IMG/VR virus record: IMGVR_UViG_3300036860_000057
Location: 1 to 64,000 of that record
Strand: one strand, 5' to 3'
DNA length: 64,000 nt
DNA from: a virus
Both the position numbers and the translations under genes were made by a program. Below the pieces are notes generated by a model. The model searched no databases. It had not been told where the DNA came from and worked only from the letters and a program-made list of their open reading frames with translations. Below, in pieces: positions 11,721 through 50,400 of the stretch. Positions within the stretch are counted from its first letter, which is position 1, and each line of letters begins with the position of its first letter.

Positions 11721-12041
11721 CTAATTCCCTTTTACAAATGATAGTGCCACACTTGGATCACCATCAATCAACTTGATAAAAAACACTAGGGCTGCTCTCA
11801 TCGCTCTTATGTGCTGATAAAGAAGAGCATCGTCTTTCCTATGAAGTCCATTCTCGTCTGCAAAACGACTCAGTCCTCTTACATAATAACGATGTGCTGG
11901 CTCTTGAAGATAAGGAGGAAGATAAGGAACGGATTTTCCTACGAACTCAGCGAGTTCTGTAGTAGTTCCTTTCCATTCTGCTCCTTGTTCTTTTAGCATT
12001 CGTTCAAGATGGGAGTACCTTCTATCTAATTGCCAACTCAT
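11721..12041 (-). CDS. First gene of the replication operon, hypothetical
   Basis: A 106-residue basic protein, MSWQLDRRYSHLERMLKE at its start, with helical character (ALLYQHIRAMRAALVFFIKL). ATG at 12041 follows GAGGAAGGAAT. It is the first gene behind the strong promoter at 12078-12106. The fold is not recognised; a small regulator or replication accessory protein would fit the position. Confidence 0.65.
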   Translation of the reverse strand: MSWQLDRRYSHLERMLKEQGAEWKGTTTELAEFVGKSVPYLPPYLQEPAHRYYVRGLSRFADENGLHRKDDALLYQHIRAMRAALVFFIKLIDGDPSVALSFVKGN

Positions 12042-12077
12042 GGAGTATTCCTTCCTCGTTTCATGTTAATAATTACA

Positions 12078-12106
12078 ATTATACACCGAGAAGAGGTGTG
12101 CGTCAA
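12078..12106 (-). promoter_or_regulatory. Sigma-70-type promoter of the replication operon
   Basis: On the minus strand, TTGACG and TATAAT are 17 bases apart. The spacer holds the inverted pair CACC...GGTG, a possible operator. The first gene starts about 30 bases after the expected start site. Confidence 0.8.
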
Positions 12107-12125
12107 GATAATGTTCCTGTAAATA

Positions 12126-12160
12126 GTAAAGCCCCAACACGGATCAGTCAGGGCCTTTAC
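12126..12160 (-). terminator. Hairpin ending the ornate RNA transcript
   Basis: A 10-base-pair stem with one mismatch (GTAAAGGCCC against GGGGCTTTAC on the minus strand) and a 15-base loop, followed by TATTT. It lies between the non-coding region and the replication promoter. Confidence 0.55.
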
Positions 12161-12521
12161 TCTGGGTTTGGTTACTCATCCCACCACTACCAGAATGTGG
12201 ATCGTTCCATGATTGGACAATACAGATATGTTGTAGTTCCACATTTTACTAGCATTCCCATGTTTCCTAGCTGGCAAGTGGACAACCCATCAAAGTAGAT
12301 TAAAAGTGCCAGTTGACGGTAAAGGCTATAGGGACTGGCGGCTCCTTACATTCCACATGTTCAACGGTCAGTGGTCAACCTTCTGCCCTCTCACCACAAC
12401 GGCAGATCGTTCAAACCAGGAGACTGTGCTGTCTCTTGCTGCTGGGTCAGCCCCTCCTGCACATCGGAGGCACGTTTCCGTTTAGGTAAAACCTAATCGT
12501 GTTGGGCTAGTGAGTCGCCAG

Positions 12522-12586
12522 TTCTTCTGGAGAGGCTCGAACTCTCAACTGCCTTGCGGCATTTTGCCAATTAAACTACAGAAGAA
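12522..12586 (-). ncRNA. tRNA-like element without an anticodon loop
   Basis: A 65-nt minus-strand element with an acceptor stem (TCTTCTG/CAGAAGA), a normal D-arm (TAGTTTAATTGGCAAAAT) and a perfect T-arm (GAGAG-TTCGAGC-CTCTC). Where the 17-nt anticodon arm should be there is only TGCC-GCAA-GGCA, a four-pair stem with a GNRA tetraloop, so there is no anticodon. It may be a structural domain of the surrounding large RNA or a tRNA mimic. Confidence 0.7.
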
Positions 12587-12635
12587 ACCACTTCCACTGA
12601 TATATACAATGGGTTCGACAGTTGCCACTGTCTAG

Positions 12636-12708
12636 TGCCCCTACATGGATTTGAACCATGATCCATCGCTTAGAAGGCGATGGCACTTTCCGTTGTGCTA
12701 TAGAGACA
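12636..12708 (-). tRNA. tRNA-Arg (TCT)
   Basis: 73 nt. Acceptor TGTCTCT/AGGGGCA is seven pairs with G-U wobbles. The anticodon arm is ATCGC-CTTCTAA-GCGAT with anticodon TCT, which reads AGA, and the T-arm contains GGTTCAAATCC. No CCA is encoded. AGA-reading tRNAs are commonly carried by AT-rich phages. It sits inside the 1-kb structured transcript. Confidence 0.92.
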
Positions 12709-13119
12709 TAAGGTAATGGCAGGTTGGATTTGAGAACTCTGGCGGGTTGTTGCCTCTCTTACCAACAGTGCTAAATATACACTCTCTTCTACGCTTCACA
12801 GGCTATGTGCCTCCACTCCAAGAGTATATAGGGGATACGCACTTGATTTCCTCCAGTTTAGTCATAATTATTTAACGTCGCTAGTTCAACAACGACACTG
12901 CCATATGGTACAACCTGATCGACTTTCCCCACCAACCGTGAATACTGTCGCCAGCCGATCCTGACAGCCCCTAGCTTATGCTAGATAAAAAGAGTTACGC
13001 CTTTACGCAGCGACTACGGCTTGTTTACTTATAGTCTCTAAGCTGGAGACGTTGACCAGTCACAGGGGCAGGTGATGACTAACCAGAACTCAAGAATAAA
13101 ACTGCCCCTGCTTATTTAT

Positions 13120-13148
13120 AGAATACCATAGGAAAATATTATTGTCAA
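13120..13148 (-). promoter_or_regulatory. Strong promoter of the structured RNA
   Basis: On the minus strand TTGACA and TATTCT are separated by exactly 17 bases, predicting a start near 13113. The -35 box begins five bases after the stop of the gene at 13153, and it shares the extended form ACTTGACA with three other minus-strand promoters here. Confidence 0.8.
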
Positions 13149-13152
13149 GTAT

Positions 13153-13731
13153 TTAGTTTTCCAACAGACCAAGTTCCTGAGCACCATGCAGCCTTCCACA
13201 CCCTCGACTCATAGCAAACCAAACACTCTCGTCCCATAGATGAGTTCCTACTTTATTATATTCAGGAACATAGAACATATTCCCACCAGGAATAACCAAG
13301 AGATATGGTTGTGCTAGTCTGTCACCATCTCGATAACCAACCAACAGTTGTGCATTATTCAGGTTCGTTCCTACAAATCCACGATCTAAATTAGGAATGT
13401 CCCACAACGAGAAGTATTGATCACAGGAAGGTGCTTGTGTAGCAGTGATCTTCACTTCGATAGTAGGTTCAACTGTTCCTTCTTCAGTAGGATCATCAGA
13501 TTCCTCTGTAGGCTCAGATGTTGGATCATTGGCAACTTCCTCAGTAGGATCAGTGTTATCATCTGTAGGTTCCTCAGTAACGCAGTGTGGATTATCTGGA
13601 TGATCACCATGCTCACATTCGTGACCGGGTGTATCATCACAACTCTTTCCATGACACTCATCAGCGAATGCTATGCTGACTGATAATAAAAATAGAACAA
13701 CCAAGAATATTACGAACATTATCTTTTTCAT
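13153..13731 (-). CDS. Secreted acidic repeat protein
   Basis: A 192-residue protein with a clear signal peptide (MKKIMFVIFLVVLFLLSVS, cleavage likely after AFA). A Cys/His-rich segment and a Thr/Pro/Glu/Asp repeat stalk (EPTDDNTDPTEE, DPTSEPTEES) follow to about residue 95, then a folded C-terminal domain with several aromatic residues. ATG follows AAAGGAACTCA. It is the last gene of the secreted cassette and probably acts at or outside the host membrane. I do not recognise the C-terminal domain. Confidence 0.8.
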   Translation of the reverse strand: MKKIMFVIFLVVLFLLSVSIAFADECHGKSCDDTPGHECEHGDHPDNPHCVTEEPTDDNTDPTEEVANDPTSEPTEESDDPTEEGTVEPTIEVKITATQAPSCDQYFSLWDIPNLDRGFVGTNLNNAQLLVGYRDGDRLAQPYLLVIPGGNMFYVPEYNKVGTHLWDESVWFAMSRGCGRLHGAQELGLLEN

Positions 13732-13740
13732 TGAGTTCCT

Positions 13741-13860
13741 TTATTGTCTGCTAACTTCTGAGTAAGAGATAGAATCACTGATCTGATGATCAGGATGAGC
13801 CTTATCATAGGATGCTGCTACAATCATTGCTATGATGAAAGCGATGAGTATCTTGTCCAT
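13741..13860 (-). CDS. Small membrane or secreted protein
   Basis: A 39-residue open frame, MDKILIAFIIAMIVAAS followed by a polar tail rich in His, Asp and Ser. GAGG lies seven bases before the ATG, and the stop is nine bases before the next start. One hydrophobic helix, either a signal peptide or membrane anchor. Function unknown. Confidence 0.6.
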   Translation of the reverse strand: MDKILIAFIIAMIVAASYDKAHPDHQISDSISYSEVSRQ

Positions 13861-13883
13861 TGGTATGCCTCGAAACGATCTAA

Positions 13884-13932
13884 AAATATCCTAAACGTTA
13901 TAGCACTATGGTACTATAAGAATAGGATATTT
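13884..13932. repeat. Nested inverted repeat before the small secreted genes
   Basis: AAATATCCTA (13884-13893) pairs with TAGGATATTT (13923-13932), and inside it TTATAG pairs with CTATAA. The hairpin lies 24 bases upstream of the 39-residue gene and may act as an operator, a leader hairpin or an RNA-processing site. Confidence 0.6.
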
Positions 13933-13963
13933 ACAAATATTTTGAGGCTGTATAACAGAATTG

Positions 13964-14227
13964 TTAGTGACCTAAAAGTTTCGTGAAGATTTTCCTGAGA
14001 AATGATTTAGGTTTAGGAGGAGTTGGTTCATCAAGTCCTAATAATATGTCCACTGATCTGTATTGTCTATATCGCAGCATAACTTTTAGCTTGTGGCGAC
14101 ACTGATCATGCACCTTGAAAGGCACGCCCTTATAATTAAAGATCACTAATGATCTCAGTAGAGGCATGTCACAAACTGGACACTTGTCCAAAAATAAGTG
14201 AGGCCAAGTCATTACCATTCTCTTCAT
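13964..14227 (-). CDS. Small Cys/His zinc-type protein
   Basis: An 87-residue basic protein with CPVC at about residue 16 and a later HDQCRHK, enough for a zinc site, and a Pro/Lys-rich C-terminal tail (PTPPKPKSFLRK). Its ATG overlaps the TGA of the lipoprotein gene upstream. Not recognised. Confidence 0.65.
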   Translation of the reverse strand: MKRMVMTWPHLFLDKCPVCDMPLLRSLVIFNYKGVPFKVHDQCRHKLKVMLRYRQYRSVDILLGLDEPTPPKPKSFLRKIFTKLLGH

Positions 14228-14841
14228 CTCAACACCGGATCAGAATATACTGTTCCACCCAACTCTATAGCAAACCACGTTGTAGGTATGGTTGTCTCAC
14301 GCAAATAGCAATCTGCATCAGCACTTCCCCAGTACGTGTCAATAGCCCAATACCATAAACAATGTACTAGGATAGGAACTGTAGTTGTATATCTGTCGTG
14401 GAAACCACAGTCAGTGCTAGGACAATCACGAATTCTGAGTTGTGAGCGAGGCTGATAGTATTGGTAGGTGATGATTTTCACAGGATAGGACAGTTCACCT
14501 ATAGGTGTGGGTGTTAGGAATCCAGTAGCAGCAGGTGTCAATGTTGGTGTGGGTGTTAACGTCTGTGTTGATGTCGGCGTATTAGTCGGCGTGGATGGTG
14601 CTTGAGTCTCTGTAGGAACTTCTGTATCAGTGGCAGTTGGTAAGGCAGTGTTCTCTTGAGTTGGCTCATTGGTTGCTGTCTCAGTTGGTGTGAGTTCTGG
14701 TGTAAAGAAGGTAACTTGAACTGAAGGTTCCGAAGTAGGAACTGTAGCAGGAAGAGTAGGAAAGGTTCCTGTAGGTGTGGAGACACATCCAGTCCATGTC
14801 AATATGGTAATTAGAAATAAAACTCTCTTTAAGTTAACCAA
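14224..14841 (-). CDS. Lipoprotein with Thr/Pro stalk and SH3-like domain
   Basis: A 205-residue protein with a lipoprotein signal (MVNLKRVLFLITILTWTGC, lipobox before Cys19), a long Thr/Pro/Glu stalk to about residue 120 and a C-terminal domain with four Cys and a pattern like bacterial SH3 (SQLRIRDCPSTDC). It is expected to be membrane-anchored and exposed, a useful form for superinfection exclusion or wall binding. It overlaps genes on both sides. TPTPT-type stalks are common in Chloroflexota proteins, hinting at host origin. Confidence 0.8.
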   Translation of the reverse strand: MVNLKRVLFLITILTWTGCVSTPTGTFPTLPATVPTSEPSVQVTFFTPELTPTETATNEPTQENTALPTATDTEVPTETQAPSTPTNTPTSTQTLTPTPTLTPAATGFLTPTPIGELSYPVKIITYQYYQPRSQLRIRDCPSTDCGFHDRYTTTVPILVHCLWYWAIDTYWGSADADCYLRETTIPTTWFAIELGGTVYSDPVLR

Positions 14842-15986
14842 TCGTTAAACACCCACCCAGTAATATTTCCTGTCCTAATATATGACCAGTTATCCAGCAT
14901 ATTCTCTACTTCAACGACTGTACCATTCTGAAGAGTAGTCAACACAGGTGACTGGAAATCAGGATGTGTTCTGACATTCAGTACACGAGTTCCAGTGCTG
15001 ACTATCTTTTCATTAGGTGGACGATGAGTTTCCATGTAAACATTCAGGCATTCAAATACTCTTCCTCTTACATCCCACTGCTGCCATACAGGAGAGAGTG
15101 CTCCAAAACAAAAGATAGTAGCCCCTACCACATAATAGTCTCTATAGAGTTGACGATCTGCCCATTCCAACATCTTTTCATAATACAATGCACCGTCTAA
15201 CTGATGATCATGAGCAGCCCAGTATGCTTGGCACTGAGTCCAAGGCCCTACAGGATAGCCTACCAGCTTATCTATTACATCTGTGCCAGCCCTATCTAGA
15301 CCCAATTCAGTCAACACTATCTTGATACGTGTCCAGCCATTAGGCAGGATGTGAGTTCTCCAGACCTTTCTATAGCGTCCAAACAGCCAGCCCTCTTCAT
15401 AGGTTGGTGGCATTTCTATTCGCTGATTGGCTAGCATCTGTTCACGTTGATTAGGACCATAGAACATATCCATGTACAGCCCACCATATTCGTGTAATCC
15501 TAAGTAGTTACTATAGAGATCACATGCTTCCAGCGCAGGATAGAAATGTTCCCAAGGATCATTCGTATCAGGCTTGATAGGTGGGGAGCCAGTTGAGAAG
15601 TTGCCTATACATGCAGAGAATCCTTCCTCATGCATGATTCTCTGGCGTTCTGCTTCGAACTTTCCATACTGAAGCATCCAGTCCCAGTTGCTCATTTCGT
15701 TAAATGACTCCCACTTGGCCCAAGGAGTCAGTGTCATAGCAGGACGAAAGGCATCTACCCAATACTTAGCTGCACCTACTGGATCAGTGAGAATTCTTCC
15801 ACTCTCCCATCGAGCGAAGTCATCTGCCTGCCCAAAGTCTCTGGCAATATAAACTTTCGTATCGCCATAGACATCATGTATCTGCTTGAGTAGAGAAGGA
15901 GAACCTGTTTTTACTACACGTGCATGTGACAGAGCAGGAATGAGTCCTGTGAAGCTATCAATGATAAAGTAGCCAAGCTTGGTCAC
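14829..15986 (-). CDS. Glycoside-hydrolase-like protein with SH3b domain
   Basis: A 385-residue protein starting at GTG after a strong GGAGGAGAAGG. The N-terminal ~310 residues look like a TIM-barrel glycosidase of clan GH-A type: Asn96-Glu97 in WESFNEMSNWDW is a typical acid/base pair and Glu227 in VLTELGLD a typical nucleophile. The C-terminal ~65 residues form an SH3b domain (RVLNVRTHPD, ITGWVFNDWL). No signal peptide is visible. It could act as a wall- or glycan-degrading enzyme, perhaps a lysin. The exact family and substrate are not known to me. Confidence 0.75.
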   Translation of the reverse strand: MTKLGYFIIDSFTGLIPALSHARVVKTGSPSLLKQIHDVYGDTKVYIARDFGQADDFARWESGRILTDPVGAAKYWVDAFRPAMTLTPWAKWESFNEMSNWDWMLQYGKFEAERQRIMHEEGFSACIGNFSTGSPPIKPDTNDPWEHFYPALEACDLYSNYLGLHEYGGLYMDMFYGPNQREQMLANQRIEMPPTYEEGWLFGRYRKVWRTHILPNGWTRIKIVLTELGLDRAGTDVIDKLVGYPVGPWTQCQAYWAAHDHQLDGALYYEKMLEWADRQLYRDYYVVGATIFCFGALSPVWQQWDVRGRVFECLNVYMETHRPPNEKIVSTGTRVLNVRTHPDFQSPVLTTLQNGTVVEVENMLDNWSYIRTGNITGWVFNDWLT

Positions 15987-17243
15987 TTAACCTTCTCCTC
16001 CCGGTAGATACTTATCAGCAAACTTCTCAGTCCCTATCTGAATCACCGACCAAGTAGTAGAACTTGAGCAGGAAGATGTTGATCCCCAATATTCCCCACT
16101 CTTCTCTTCGGCTATGCAGAAAAATTTAACAATGTCGCCTACAGTATAGGTCAGACCTGTCAGGTTAGTGGCGATGTTGTAATCTCTGGAAGTCCTGATA
16201 TTCGTGACACGAGTATACTTATAGTATTCATCTGCATTATAAAACGCAGGAAACGATCCACTGGCAGGCGTAGGAGTCACTACTGATGTTGGTGTGGAAG
16301 TAGGTATAGGTGTAGAACTAGGAACACTTCCACCAGAACACACAACAGACAAGTCGTCTAGGTAATTATTATTGTTTCTGAAAGGCCATAGCCTTATATT
16401 ATCGTAGAAAATAGTAGTCTTAGTGCTAGTTGCTACGAAGTCATAAGACACTTTCGCCCAGCGATCATACACACCATCATCATAACCAAAGGCACGAGAT
16501 TTCAGCACACCGCCAGCAAAAGCATTCGTTCCGCCAGCAGTGTCTACTAGGATATAGAATGTGGCATTTGCCTTGTCATCTGTTGTAAATAAATGACTCT
16601 TGTGCGGATCAAGATCACCATCTGCACCAGACCATGCTTGAACATAGCCAGTTGCAGTACAGGATGATCCTGGAACAGTTGTTATTGTCTGATAAATTCC
16701 TCCTTCTATGGCACGATAGAAACCAAAGTATTCTACTGCATTCGTTCCACTATGAATTCTCAAGGCATCCTGATCTACAGCAGCAGGCTTATATTCTGGT
16801 CTGCCTAATTTTAATCCTGTAGGATTGCCAGTTCCTTGTCTGTAAGCAGGACATCCATCACAGTAAAATGCTGTCCAATCTCTTGGAACAATATGATAGA
16901 ATCCATCACTATGAAGTTTACTAATATATGGTCCTTCCAGTCCACCATCTTTGAACAAGTTAGTTCCCGTTATCTGAGTAGGAACAGCAGTAAGACTTGG
17001 CACTACTGTAGGTGTCTTAGTAGCTGAAGGTACAGCAGTGGGAGAGGGGTTTGGCGGGGTTGGGGTGAGGGTAGCGCTAGCGCTACTGGCAGGGGTAAGT
17101 GTTACTATCTTCTTGCAATAGATAGAACCTGATCCATCTGCATAGAGATCAGCTTTACAGTCAGAAGCATTGAACTCTGTGTGAGTAGCGCCTGCACAAG
17201 CAGTAAGTAAAATAAGTGCAATGAGGATGATGTATCTTTTCAT
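15987..17243 (-). CDS. Lipoprotein with Thr/Pro linkers and carbohydrate-binding-like domain
   Basis: A 418-residue protein with a lipoprotein signal (MKRYIILIALILLTAC, lipobox LTAC). A Thr/Pro/Ser linker follows at about 48-95, then a 200-residue beta-rich middle domain that resembles sugar-binding jelly rolls (LFKDGGLEGPY, VPRDWTAFYCDGC), a second linker (PTSTPTSVVTPTP) and a small C-terminal domain. It should be anchored on the outer face of the membrane. It is the first gene behind the promoter at 17426-17453. It could bind host or competitor surface glycans, which is inference. Confidence 0.75.
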   Translation of the reverse strand: MKRYIILIALILLTACAGATHTEFNASDCKADLYADGSGSIYCKKIVTLTPASSASATLTPTPPNPSPTAVPSATKTPTVVPSLTAVPTQITGTNLFKDGGLEGPYISKLHSDGFYHIVPRDWTAFYCDGCPAYRQGTGNPTGLKLGRPEYKPAAVDQDALRIHSGTNAVEYFGFYRAIEGGIYQTITTVPGSSCTATGYVQAWSGADGDLDPHKSHLFTTDDKANATFYILVDTAGGTNAFAGGVLKSRAFGYDDGVYDRWAKVSYDFVATSTKTTIFYDNIRLWPFRNNNNYLDDLSVVCSGGSVPSSTPIPTSTPTSVVTPTPASGSFPAFYNADEYYKYTRVTNIRTSRDYNIATNLTGLTYTVGDIVKFFCIAEEKSGEYWGSTSSCSSSTTWSVIQIGTEKFADKYLPGGEG

Positions 17244-48869: not shown

Positions 48870-49115
48870 ATGACCCACTCTACTCTTACATGGTTCAGTG
48901 GTGTAATTAAGCCAAGCCAATCAGAAGATCAGATTCTAATTGCAATGCCAACTCTAAATGGTGACAAGATAGAAGTAATACCAGATTTATTTAGGTACAA
49001 CAAGAAACAAGATGTATTTACTTCTCGCGCCATTCCAGGACATGTAGATAGGAAAGATGTTAGATATTGGGCCTATGTGCCACTCTATTTGGAAGATCAC
49101 GAAGGAAAAGGTTGA
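48870..49115 (+). CDS. Small hypothetical protein
   Basis: An 81-residue protein, AAGGAAG before the ATG. Beta-rich (ILIAMPTLNGDKIEVIP). Its last codons contain the -35 box of the tRNA promoter. Not recognised. Confidence 0.65.
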   Translation: MTHSTLTWFSGVIKPSQSEDQILIAMPTLNGDKIEVIPDLFRYNKKQDVFTSRAIPGHVDRKDVRYWAYVPLYLEDHEGKG

Positions 49116-49140
49116 CAAGTGTTGAAAATTGTGCTATCAT
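49112..49140 (+). promoter_or_regulatory. Promoter of the tRNA cluster
   Basis: TTGACA and TATCAT are exactly 17 bases apart, 112 bases before the first tRNA. Confidence 0.8.
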
Positions 49141-49200
49141 GAAATTAGATGTACCTCTATGTGTGTAGTGTGTTCGACTCCTTTTATTGTGTAAGTGTAG

Positions 49201-49250
49201 ATGTGGTTCGGGGATAACCACATAAAACACCTCCGTTCTTTAACAATTTA
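49201..49250 (+). promoter_or_regulatory. boxB/boxA-like antitermination leader
   Basis: An eight-pair hairpin ATGTGGTT/AACCACAT (49201-49223) is followed by GTTCTTTAACAATTTA (49235-49250). The latter matches the rRNA-operon boxA, as I recall the E. coli sequence GCTCTTTAACAATTTA, at all but one position. The order hairpin then boxA is that of rRNA leaders, where NusB/NusE bind boxA RNA and make RNA polymerase ignore terminators. Confidence 0.75.
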
Positions 49251-49252
49251 AT

Positions 49253-49324
49253 GCGTGTGTGGTGTTAATGGTAGCATCACACTCTTCCAAAGTGAAGGTT
49301 AGGGTTCGAGTCCCTACACACGCA
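49253..49324 (+). tRNA. tRNA-Gly (TCC)
   Basis: 72 nt. Acceptor GCGTGTG/CACACGC, loop CTTCCAA with anticodon TCC (reads GGA), T-arm TAGGG-TTCGAGT-CCCTA, discriminator A, no encoded CCA. Starts two bases after boxA. Confidence 0.93.
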
Positions 49325-49361
49325 CAAGCTGGGGTGTTCCCAGCATAGCAAGGAGACACTT

Positions 49362-49442
49362 ATGTACTTCGTGCCGCTTCTCTCGTCTACAGGTCAAATC
49401 CTCCCCGATTGGCTTAGGCAAAAGAAGCTATCGTCACCGTAG
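49362..49442 (+). CDS. Possible 26-residue peptide
   Basis: AAGGAG lies seven bases before an ATG that opens 26 codons (MYFVPLLSSTGQ at start). It lies between two tRNAs. Could be chance; no similarity known. Confidence 0.3.
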   Translation: MYFVPLLSSTGQILPDWLRQKKLSSP

Positions 49443-49465
49443 TAAAGTGTAACTTCCGGCTATAA

Positions 49466-49490
49466 GGGAGGGTGAAAGTCCCTCCCACCA
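49466..49490 (+). other. GC-rich minihelix ending in ACCA
   Basis: GGGAGGG-TGAAAGT-CCCTCCC, seven pairs with a seven-base loop, followed directly by ACCA one base before tRNA-Trp. It resembles an acceptor-stem minihelix, but could be a processing or pausing hairpin. Confidence 0.45.
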
Positions 49491-49491
49491 T

Positions 49492-49562
49492 ACATCTGTG
49501 ATCTAATGGTAAGAGCACAATCTCCAAAATTGTGAATCCTCGTCCGAATCGAGGCAGATGTG
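49492..49562 (+). tRNA. tRNA-Trp (CCA)
   Basis: 71 nt. Acceptor ACATCTG/CAGATGT with G discriminator as in most Trp tRNAs, anticodon arm ACAAT-CTCCAAA-ATTGT with anticodon CCA, T-arm CCTCG-TCCGAAT-CGAGG. The T-loop has C at its second position, a small deviation. Confidence 0.9.
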
Positions 49563-49596
49563 CTGACCAGTTATCATCATTCCAAAGGAGGAATAA

Positions 49597-49752
49597 ATGT
49601 TCAACTGGGGCCGTATAAGAACGGTGCTATTGGGGTTGCTTCTTATTGCAGCAGGACTAATTCTGGCGTTCAATCTGAACTTCACCAACATGAATTATGT
49701 CCTTGCTGTACTGGCAATCTTCGATGGCGTTCTATGGATTATATTTCCATAG
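49597..49752 (+). CDS. Small membrane protein inside the tRNA cluster
   Basis: A 51-residue protein with an excellent binding site (AAAGGAGG). MFNWGRIRTVLLGLLLIAAG begins it; two hydrophobic helices follow (TVLLGLLLIAAGLILAF; VLAVLAIFDGVLWIIF). Its place within a tRNA operon is odd. Function unknown. Confidence 0.7.
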   Translation: MFNWGRIRTVLLGLLLIAAGLILAFNLNFTNMNYVLAVLAIFDGVLWIIFP

Positions 49753-49758
49753 AAAAAT

Positions 49759-49803
49759 GGAAGGTCTGATACTGGAGTAAGATGTTCGAACCATCAGCCT
49801 TCC
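49759..49803 (+). ncRNA. Possible T-arm/acceptor tRNA-like hairpin
   Basis: GGAAGGT/GCCTTCC form a seven-pair acceptor and GATG-TTCGAAC-CATC a four-pair T-arm; no other arm exists (45 nt). However, CTGAT can pair with ATCAG instead, giving a longer simple hairpin, so the tRNA-like reading is uncertain. Confidence 0.4.
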
Positions 49804-49834
49804 AGTTGCCCATGAGGGCATTTTCCTGCGGATT

Positions 49835-49868
49835 GAGGGGAGTGAACTGAAGGCACTCCCCTCTTTAT
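49835..49868 (+). terminator. Terminator-like hairpin inside the tRNA cluster
   Basis: Perfect ten-pair stem GAGGGGAGTG/CACTCCCCTC, loop nine, followed by TTTATT, one base before tRNA-Thr. Readthrough would need antitermination, which the boxA leader could supply. Confidence 0.75.
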
Positions 49869-49869
49869 T

Positions 49870-49941
49870 GCCAACATAGCACAATGGTAGTGCAAATCTT
49901 TTGTAAAGATTAGGCTGAGAGTTCGAATCCCTCTGTTGGCT
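49870..49941 (+). tRNA. tRNA-Thr (TGT)
   Basis: 72 nt. Acceptor GCCAACA/TGTTGGC, anticodon arm AATCT-TTTGTAA-AGATT with anticodon TGT (reads ACA), T-arm GAGAG-TTCGAAT-CCCTC with one A-C mismatch, discriminator T, no encoded CCA. Confidence 0.92.
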
Positions 49942-50009
49942 CTTAGGGCAGTAAGTGTGGGGCAAGGCTTAGGCATAACCTTGAATATCTGTACTGCCCT
50001 ATATAAATT

Positions 50010-50120
50010 ATGAGAGACATATTATTTATTGTTGTATATGTAGCTGGTGAGTTAGTTGCAGTCCTGACAGATTGTGTAATTCTTGTTGGTGCAGTTCTGT
50101 ACGTCATATTGAAATGGTAA
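50010..50120 (+). CDS. Possible 36-residue membrane peptide
   Basis: ATG at 50010 opens 36 codons, nearly all hydrophobic (MRDILFIVVYVAGELVAVL...VILVGAVLYVILKW). No good binding site. Composition argues for a real membrane peptide. Confidence 0.45.
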   Translation: MRDILFIVVYVAGELVAVLTDCVILVGAVLYVILKW

Positions 50121-50128
50121 TTATAGAT

Positions 50129-50184
50129 GGGCCAATTATTCCGGTGAATGCTAGCTATGGCGGATTCGACTCCCGCTTGGTCCG
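50129..50184 (+). ncRNA. 56-nt minimal tRNA-like element
   Basis: Acceptor GGGCCAA/TTGGTCC (seven pairs) with G discriminator. The T-arm, directly adjacent as in tRNA, has loop TTCGACT and a stem of four pairs plus one A-C mismatch. Between them are only 24 bases with a four-pair hairpin ATTC-CGGT-GAAT. No anticodon arm. Closely parallels the 47-nt element at 24330. Confidence 0.65.
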
Positions 50185-50346
50185 CCGTAACCTGTACGGC
50201 GCAGAGGAGACGACACTCAATCAGTGCCAATGTTGAAGGTAAGATAGTTAAGCCCAGTAAATGTCTGGTATCCCAGAGGCCATGCTACTGAGAATATAAC
50301 TGGCTGTGAAACTGATTAGCCGCCTTATTCAAGAGGAACACAAGAA
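50185..50346 (+). other. Spacer after the tRNA cluster
   Basis: Contains GCCGTAACCTGTACGGC, a short hairpin just after the tRNA-like element. Otherwise no gene or clear structure seen. Confidence 0.4.
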
Positions 50347-50400
50347 ATAGATCGACGTACTTTCCTTCACTATTTAATCTTAGGATCAATAGCTGCTATC

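Follow-up and report, generated by a model that had tools for sequence, protein, structure and literature searches.

What is encoded in the 1.1-kb gap that separates two minus-strand genes of the virus record IMGVR_UViG_3300036860_000057? The record is 78,573 bases long, and a part of it, the stretch of 64,000 nucleotides analysed here, is called the window. An earlier note made from the letters of the window had proposed that this gap holds a long, ornate non-coding RNA, and this observation holds in part, on the minus strand. The tRNA-Arg(UCU) in the gap is encoded by the minus strand, which fixes this as the strand on which the RNA is read. We consider it moderately probable that in the ~1-kb locus the phage encodes a long structured RNA, non-coding and of the GOLLD/ROOL/RNAX kind, that belongs to no recognised family. 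A promoter, a lack of coding, a tRNA, a tRNA-like domain, and the lack of a match to GOLLD or ROOL are shown at the level of sequence.

Of the two genes that flank the gap, one ends at 13153 and the other starts at 12041. No ORF of at least 70 aa is present in 12042-13152 on either strand, and stop codons are about as frequent in the gap as chance would give. Of small ORFs that have a ribosome site the gap contains just three (17, 33, and 22 aa), none of which is credible. The G+C content of the gap is 47.4%, where the window averages 40.2 (sd 2.6), and this is the highest value of all 1-kb stretches in the window. A rise in G+C in A+T-rich genomes is a usual mark of structured RNA genes. These results bear out the claim of a ~1-kb non-coding stretch and place the RNA as follows.

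12115 to 13113, minus strand: proposed ~1.0-kb non-coding RNA, from the absence of an ORF, the random-rate stops, and the peak in G+C, with the start inferred from the promoter.

A gap without ORFs near replication genes, with a sign change in GC skew nearby (~16-18 kb), could also be a DNA element such as a replication origin or a packaging site. The skew change, however, coincides with a switch of gene strand at 17.3 kb and not with the gap, and the gap lacks tandem or iterated repeats, which makes this explanation highly improbable.

Transcription of the RNA would begin at a promoter of its own.

13120 to 13148, minus strand: promoter TTGACA-17-TATTCT with an extended -10 (TG), a consensus-like site of a promoter class that is enriched in the window.

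The window contains six TTGACA-N16-18-TATNNT sites versus 1.2 expected, a number that is reached in none of 100 shuffles, and when checked against the ORF list the sites of this class were seen to sit before genes, operons, or tRNA tracts. The consensus-like promoter described in the earlier note is supported by this enrichment, and the start of the RNA would therefore lie near 13113. Two features mark the other end of the unit.

12125 to 12161, minus strand: terminal hairpin AGUAAAGGCCC...GGGGCUUUACU followed by UAUUUACA, predicted by folding (z -2.1), weak and terminator-like.
12078 to 12106, minus strand: separate promoter TTGACG-17-TATAAT of the downstream gene (12041-11721), matching 11 of 12 consensus positions.

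The claim of a terminator stands with regard to the hairpin and is not borne out with regard to its strength, as the U-tract is weak and the terminator scan does not call the hairpin on the minus strand. With a hairpin at its end and a downstream gene that has its own promoter, the RNA unit is bounded, but termination is not certain.

Two tRNA-shaped elements are embedded near the middle of the proposed RNA.

12635 to 12707, minus strand: tRNA-Arg, anticodon UCU, no encoded CCA, identified by ARAGORN and by Rfam RF00005 (59.3 bits).
12522 to 12587, minus strand: tRNA-like domain with acceptor stem UUCUUCUG/CAGAAGAA, D arm, T arm, and a reduced anticodon arm.

Both had been described earlier and both were recovered. 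The tRNA-Arg has the properties of a functional tRNA, namely a cloverleaf that scores above the Rfam threshold and an anticodon; in the phage genes counted, AGA (17.1 per 1000) is used more than any other Arg codon. The tRNA-like domain stands shortly 3' of the tRNA-Arg and has an acceptor of 7-8 bp, a D arm with GG, and the T arm GAGAG-UUCGAGC-CUCUC. Its anticodon arm is a 4-bp GCAA-capped hairpin, UGCC-GCAA-GGCA, and the domain cannot decode. The minimum-energy fold of the isolated domain does not have a tRNA shape, while the acceptor stem and the mini-arm are present in the centroid; the minimum-energy fold of the real tRNA-Arg likewise lacks a tRNA shape. Local helices that would enclose the two elements were tried and were not significant, neither a 7-bp helix around the tRNA-Arg (p 0.18) nor an outer stem around the tRNA-like domain (p 0.76). 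One longer-range pairing adjoins the tRNA-like domain and is a candidate based on a single sequence.

12512 to 12522, minus strand: candidate long-range helix, 5' strand ACUGGCGACUC, directly 3' of the tRNA-like domain (inverted repeat I11, 10 of 11 pairs).
12334 to 12344, minus strand: candidate long-range helix, partner strand GAGCCGCCAGU (inverted repeat I11).

The main rival explanation is an ordinary tRNA transcript, in which a functional tRNA-Arg is accompanied by a decayed tRNA gene and the ~800 nt of flanks are functionless spacer that is degraded after processing. An acceptor, a D arm, and a T arm that are all good, with only the anticodon arm gone and a GCAA cap in its place, are unlike the outcome of random decay, and the intactness of the remaining arms makes simple decay less likely. 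The locus is also the kilobase with the top G+C of an A+T-rich, gene-dense phage, unlike a drifting spacer, and it has its own promoter and pairing of its ends. The unexceptional folding energy of the whole RNA, the weak terminator, and the several other degenerate tRNA-like elements in the genome agree with this explanation, and we regard it as unlikely.

These other elements were found by scanning the whole 78.6-kb record, and 30 shuffles, for a 7-bp acceptor stem that adjoins a T arm. The scan, which also recovers T4 rnaC and T5 RNA1, returned eight places in the record versus 0.1 in the shuffles (maximum 1), and the eight consist of three canonical tRNAs and five non-canonical elements. 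Four of the latter are additional to the domain at 12587-12522 and are 45-68 nt long.

24075-24008, minus strand: non-canonical tRNA-like element.
24376-24330, minus strand: non-canonical tRNA-like element.
49758-49804, plus strand: non-canonical tRNA-like element.
50129-50183, plus strand: non-canonical tRNA-like element.

One of the four is without a D arm, one has a 4-bp mini-hairpin and ends in CACCA, one consists of an acceptor and a T arm only, and one has a short variable middle. Several of the non-canonical elements alternate with tiny ORFs (~65 aa, 51 aa, and 36 aa) in a layout that resembles tRNA punctuation. It is known that an acceptor stem and a T arm suffice for bacterial RNase P, and the tRNA and the minimal tRNA-like elements could thus be a relay of processing signals, or RNase P and RNase Z cut sites, here and perhaps at other places in this genome, with the 1-kb RNA serving mainly as a precursor. 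The segments that would be freed from the 1-kb RNA contain no credible ORF, so there would be nothing to punctuate, and a relay leaves the G+C content and the pairing of the ends unexplained. For these reasons we find a relay of this kind rather improbable, even with the five non-canonical elements and their alternation with tiny ORFs in its favor. The T4 rnaC/rnaD and T5 RNA1-RNA3 species are similarly tRNA-like phage RNAs that lie beside tRNAs, but they are separate short RNAs (73-144 nt) and not domains of a 1-kb RNA. A second tRNA tract at 49112-50400 (plus strand) has its own TTGACA promoter (49112-49140), tRNA-Gly, -Trp, and -Thr, many hairpins, and small ORFs, and is a possible further structured transcript.

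The earlier note had assigned the locus to the overall plan of the GOLLD and ROOL RNAs. ROOL is a large phage or prophage RNA that is often found near tRNAs, and both GOLLD and ROOL form RNA-only cages whose purpose is unknown (PMC12286853). In GOLLD, a tRNA or pseudo-tRNA linker lies between a 5' region and a ~400-nt 3' region (PMC12286853, PMC6582537), and a pseudo-tRNA is present inside a mycobacterial GOLLD (PMC6582537). The Rfam search that had been suggested as a check was run at E<=10 with permissive filters on the window and the whole record, and it was negative for both families. The GOLLD model (RF02032) gave no match in either, where the positive control was for ROOL only, and the ROOL model (RF03087) gave no match at E<=10, while the control copy of ROOL from Ligilactobacillus pMP118 was found with 130 bits (E 1.1e-29). 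The matches in the locus at E<=10 were the tRNA and noise. The likeness to ROOL is that of a large phage RNA in the company of tRNAs. The part of the assignment that survives is therefore the plan, with a promoter, ~1 kb without an ORF, a tRNA and a tRNA-like domain, and an end hairpin; the part that does not is a match to either model. GOLLD and, in a less formal sense, T5 RNAX are precedents for this kind of RNA, a giant phage RNA with a tRNA or tRNA-like element, but no known family matches.

A true GOLLD member that has diverged highly must also be considered. The RNA has ~400 nt, a tRNA linker, and ~400 nt, an apparent agreement with GOLLD in sizes and order, the RF02032 model has 416 positions, and tRNAs and pseudo-tRNAs do occur in GOLLD (PMC12286853, PMC6582537). 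The failure of RF02032 to match at E<=10 with permissive filters, in a search that had no GOLLD-positive control, speaks against membership, which we judge very improbable.

The best sub-threshold Rfam match of the tRNA-like domain is Deinococcus_Y_RNA (RF01053), with 26.5 bits and E 0.04, which is due to the GCAA mini-arm. YrlA and the Deinococcus Y RNA are tRNA mimics with a GCAA-capped mini-arm, and the domain could in principle be a YrlA-type Y RNA that is bound by a Ro60/Rsr protein. The match is far under the gathering score of 80, however, several of the outer-stem pairs are non-standard, and no TROVE (Ro60) protein is present in the 78.6-kb record by a search whose control was positive in Deinobacterium. 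A Y RNA is the least probable of the explanations weighed here.

Relatives of the locus and of the phage were sought more widely. Among the matches listed in a DNA search of 50,697 phage and 72,556 plasmid records, only the tRNA stretch was matched. No relatives were confirmed in IMG/VR for six phage proteins (the neighboring 106-aa protein, a 413-aa protein, the terminase, the DNA polymerase, and the 487-aa and 683-aa proteins of the structural region), and the 487-aa protein had no relative in the GTDB genomes. Motif scans for tRNA-like elements with a GCAA mini-arm, two in IMG/VR and one in the GTDB genomes, yielded no 1-kb relative, and their matches were mostly unrelated or tRNA-Cys with a few real tRNA-like elements. 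The phage is thus an orphan in the phage and plasmid records, IMG/VR, and GTDB. As no relative was found, the two 400-nt arms are without covariation support. Elsewhere, L033 (1724-1795) contains a tRNA-like element that has an acceptor of 7-8 bp, both a D and a T arm, and a mini-arm where the anticodon arm would be, and whose ACCA end is encoded. In a G+C-rich contig of an unrelated phage (L056, 2310-2410), a tRNA-like element with a GAGA-capped mini-arm stands immediately ahead of a ribosome site and a start codon.

The earlier note had also described many tight hairpins, and this was not borne out as a distinguishing property. The RNA contains two GNRA/UNCG hairpins versus 1.0 expected, and helices that score at least 21 are in modest excess (50 versus 36 +/- 3 expected). 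Folding of the 1,001-nt RNA gives a minimum free energy of -328 kcal/mol (z -2.8). Since control segments taken from coding parts of this phage go as low as z -3.3, folding energy proves nothing about structure here, and the thermodynamic z-score was rejected as a proof. More is suggested by the two ends of the molecule.

13062 to 13111, minus strand: 5' hairpin GCAGGGGCAG...CUGCCCCUGU, 10 bp, predicted by folding (z -2.1).
13074 to 13100, minus strand: proposed end-closing helix, 5' strand, in the loop of the 5' hairpin, with its partner at 12180-12156 (pairing probability 0.87-0.95).
12156 to 12180, minus strand: proposed end-closing helix, 3' strand, from pairing probabilities and duplex energy.

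The duplex energy between the 5'-most 50-60 nt and the 3'-most 75-110 nt has p 0.005-0.016 against shuffles and beats 98.6% of other window pairs, in a test made after the pairing was sighted in the fold. The predicted pairing is suggestive of a closed molecule.

Phage T5 RNAX, which had not been named earlier, is the better and the closest analogue. It is annotated as a stable RNA of unknown function, 719 nt in length (AY543070 40848-41566; L043 20848-21566), with promoter P16-17, a tRNA-Arg directly 3', and no protein product annotated in T5. By blastn it has matches in 521 phage records, and it matches nothing in Rfam except for the tRNA model, which matches an unannotated internal tRNA-like element. 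An alignment of eight T5-like versions of RNAX shows that this element has a reduced anticodon arm and is enclosed by a stem, with 13 of the 33 predicted pairs changed on both sides. In two phages, SpoonbillGilly (L052) and GSW6 (L054), a plain hairpin stands in place of the tRNA-like module. These alignments indicate that a long phage RNA exists which is under structural constraint and which combines an internal tRNA-like element, probably unable to decode, with a tRNA-Arg. Relatives of RNAX carry annotations as tRNA-OTHER, tRNA-Sec, or small ORFs.

The RNA of the window and RNAX are alike in having their own promoter and in combining an anticodon-reduced tRNA-like element and a tRNA-Arg in one long non-coding unit that is phage-encoded and absent from Rfam. 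They differ in order, as T5 has the tRNA-like element, ~560 nt, and the tRNA-Arg at the 3' end, whereas in the window the tRNA-Arg precedes the tRNA-like domain, and sequence similarity is confined to the tRNA-like part. A covariance model of the T5 RNAX region (R1) matches the domain at 12587-12522 with 19 bits, more than it gives the tRNA-Arg of the window, but scores of 20-24 bits are reached by other real tRNAs. Of the model, only positions 24-94 align, which cover the tRNA-like element, and the window has no match to the outer stem CACUUAUGUAGU/ACUGGAUAACUGGUG of T5. A shared AAGAACUGG after the tRNA-like element in T5 was judged to be chance, and BLAST of the window RNA against T5 RNAX and the ICP1 gap gave short chance matches only. 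From these comparisons the window RNA shares the plan of RNAX and is not a demonstrated member of an RNAX family. In ICP1, an ORF-less gap gives the most abundant transcript of that phage (PMC7567579); this ~800-nt non-coding RNA comes, like the RNA proposed here, from an ORF-less gap of about 1 kb, but it has no tRNA and no sequence similarity to the window RNA.

For a phage gene that encodes a long structured RNA, we infer by analogy with GOLLD, ROOL, and RNAX where the transcript begins and ends, how its two arms fold, how it is processed, any assembly into a particle, and any benefit to the phage. A sigma-70 type RNA polymerase would transcribe the ~1-kb RNA from its own promoter, and the 5' and 3' ends would pair. 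Two arms of ~400 nt, joined by a linker that consists of the tRNA-Arg(UCU) and the anticodon-less tRNA mimic, would then form a stable RNA body, and the host tRNA enzymes (RNase P, 3' processing, and CCA addition) could release the tRNA-Arg for use at AGA codons. Because the mimic cannot decode, it is more likely to be a structural or processing domain, and it may be kept as such in the manner of the reduced tRNA-like element that caps a covarying stem in T5 RNAX. The lack of covariation support for the arms, the ordinary folding energy, the weak U-tract, and an RNAX-model score that is also reached by ordinary tRNAs weigh against this reading. A bolder and less probable reading is that the locus represents a new class of giant phage RNA, with a usable tRNA and an anticodon-less mimic as integral parts, in a phage that uses minimal tRNA-like elements (45-66 nt, lacking the D and/or anticodon arm) as functional parts of transcripts. 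An unrelated RNA with the GOLLD/ROOL plan, together with the RNAX tRNA-like element in a covarying stem, would point to tRNA mimicry as a common feature, a question that is directly testable in T5 and E. coli.

Next to the locus, the window encodes at 13153-17243 (minus strand) proteins whose starts resemble those of signal peptides or lipoproteins and which have long linkers rich in Pro and Thr (TPTPTP). These recall surface proteins of the Chloroflexota and give a weak hint of the host.
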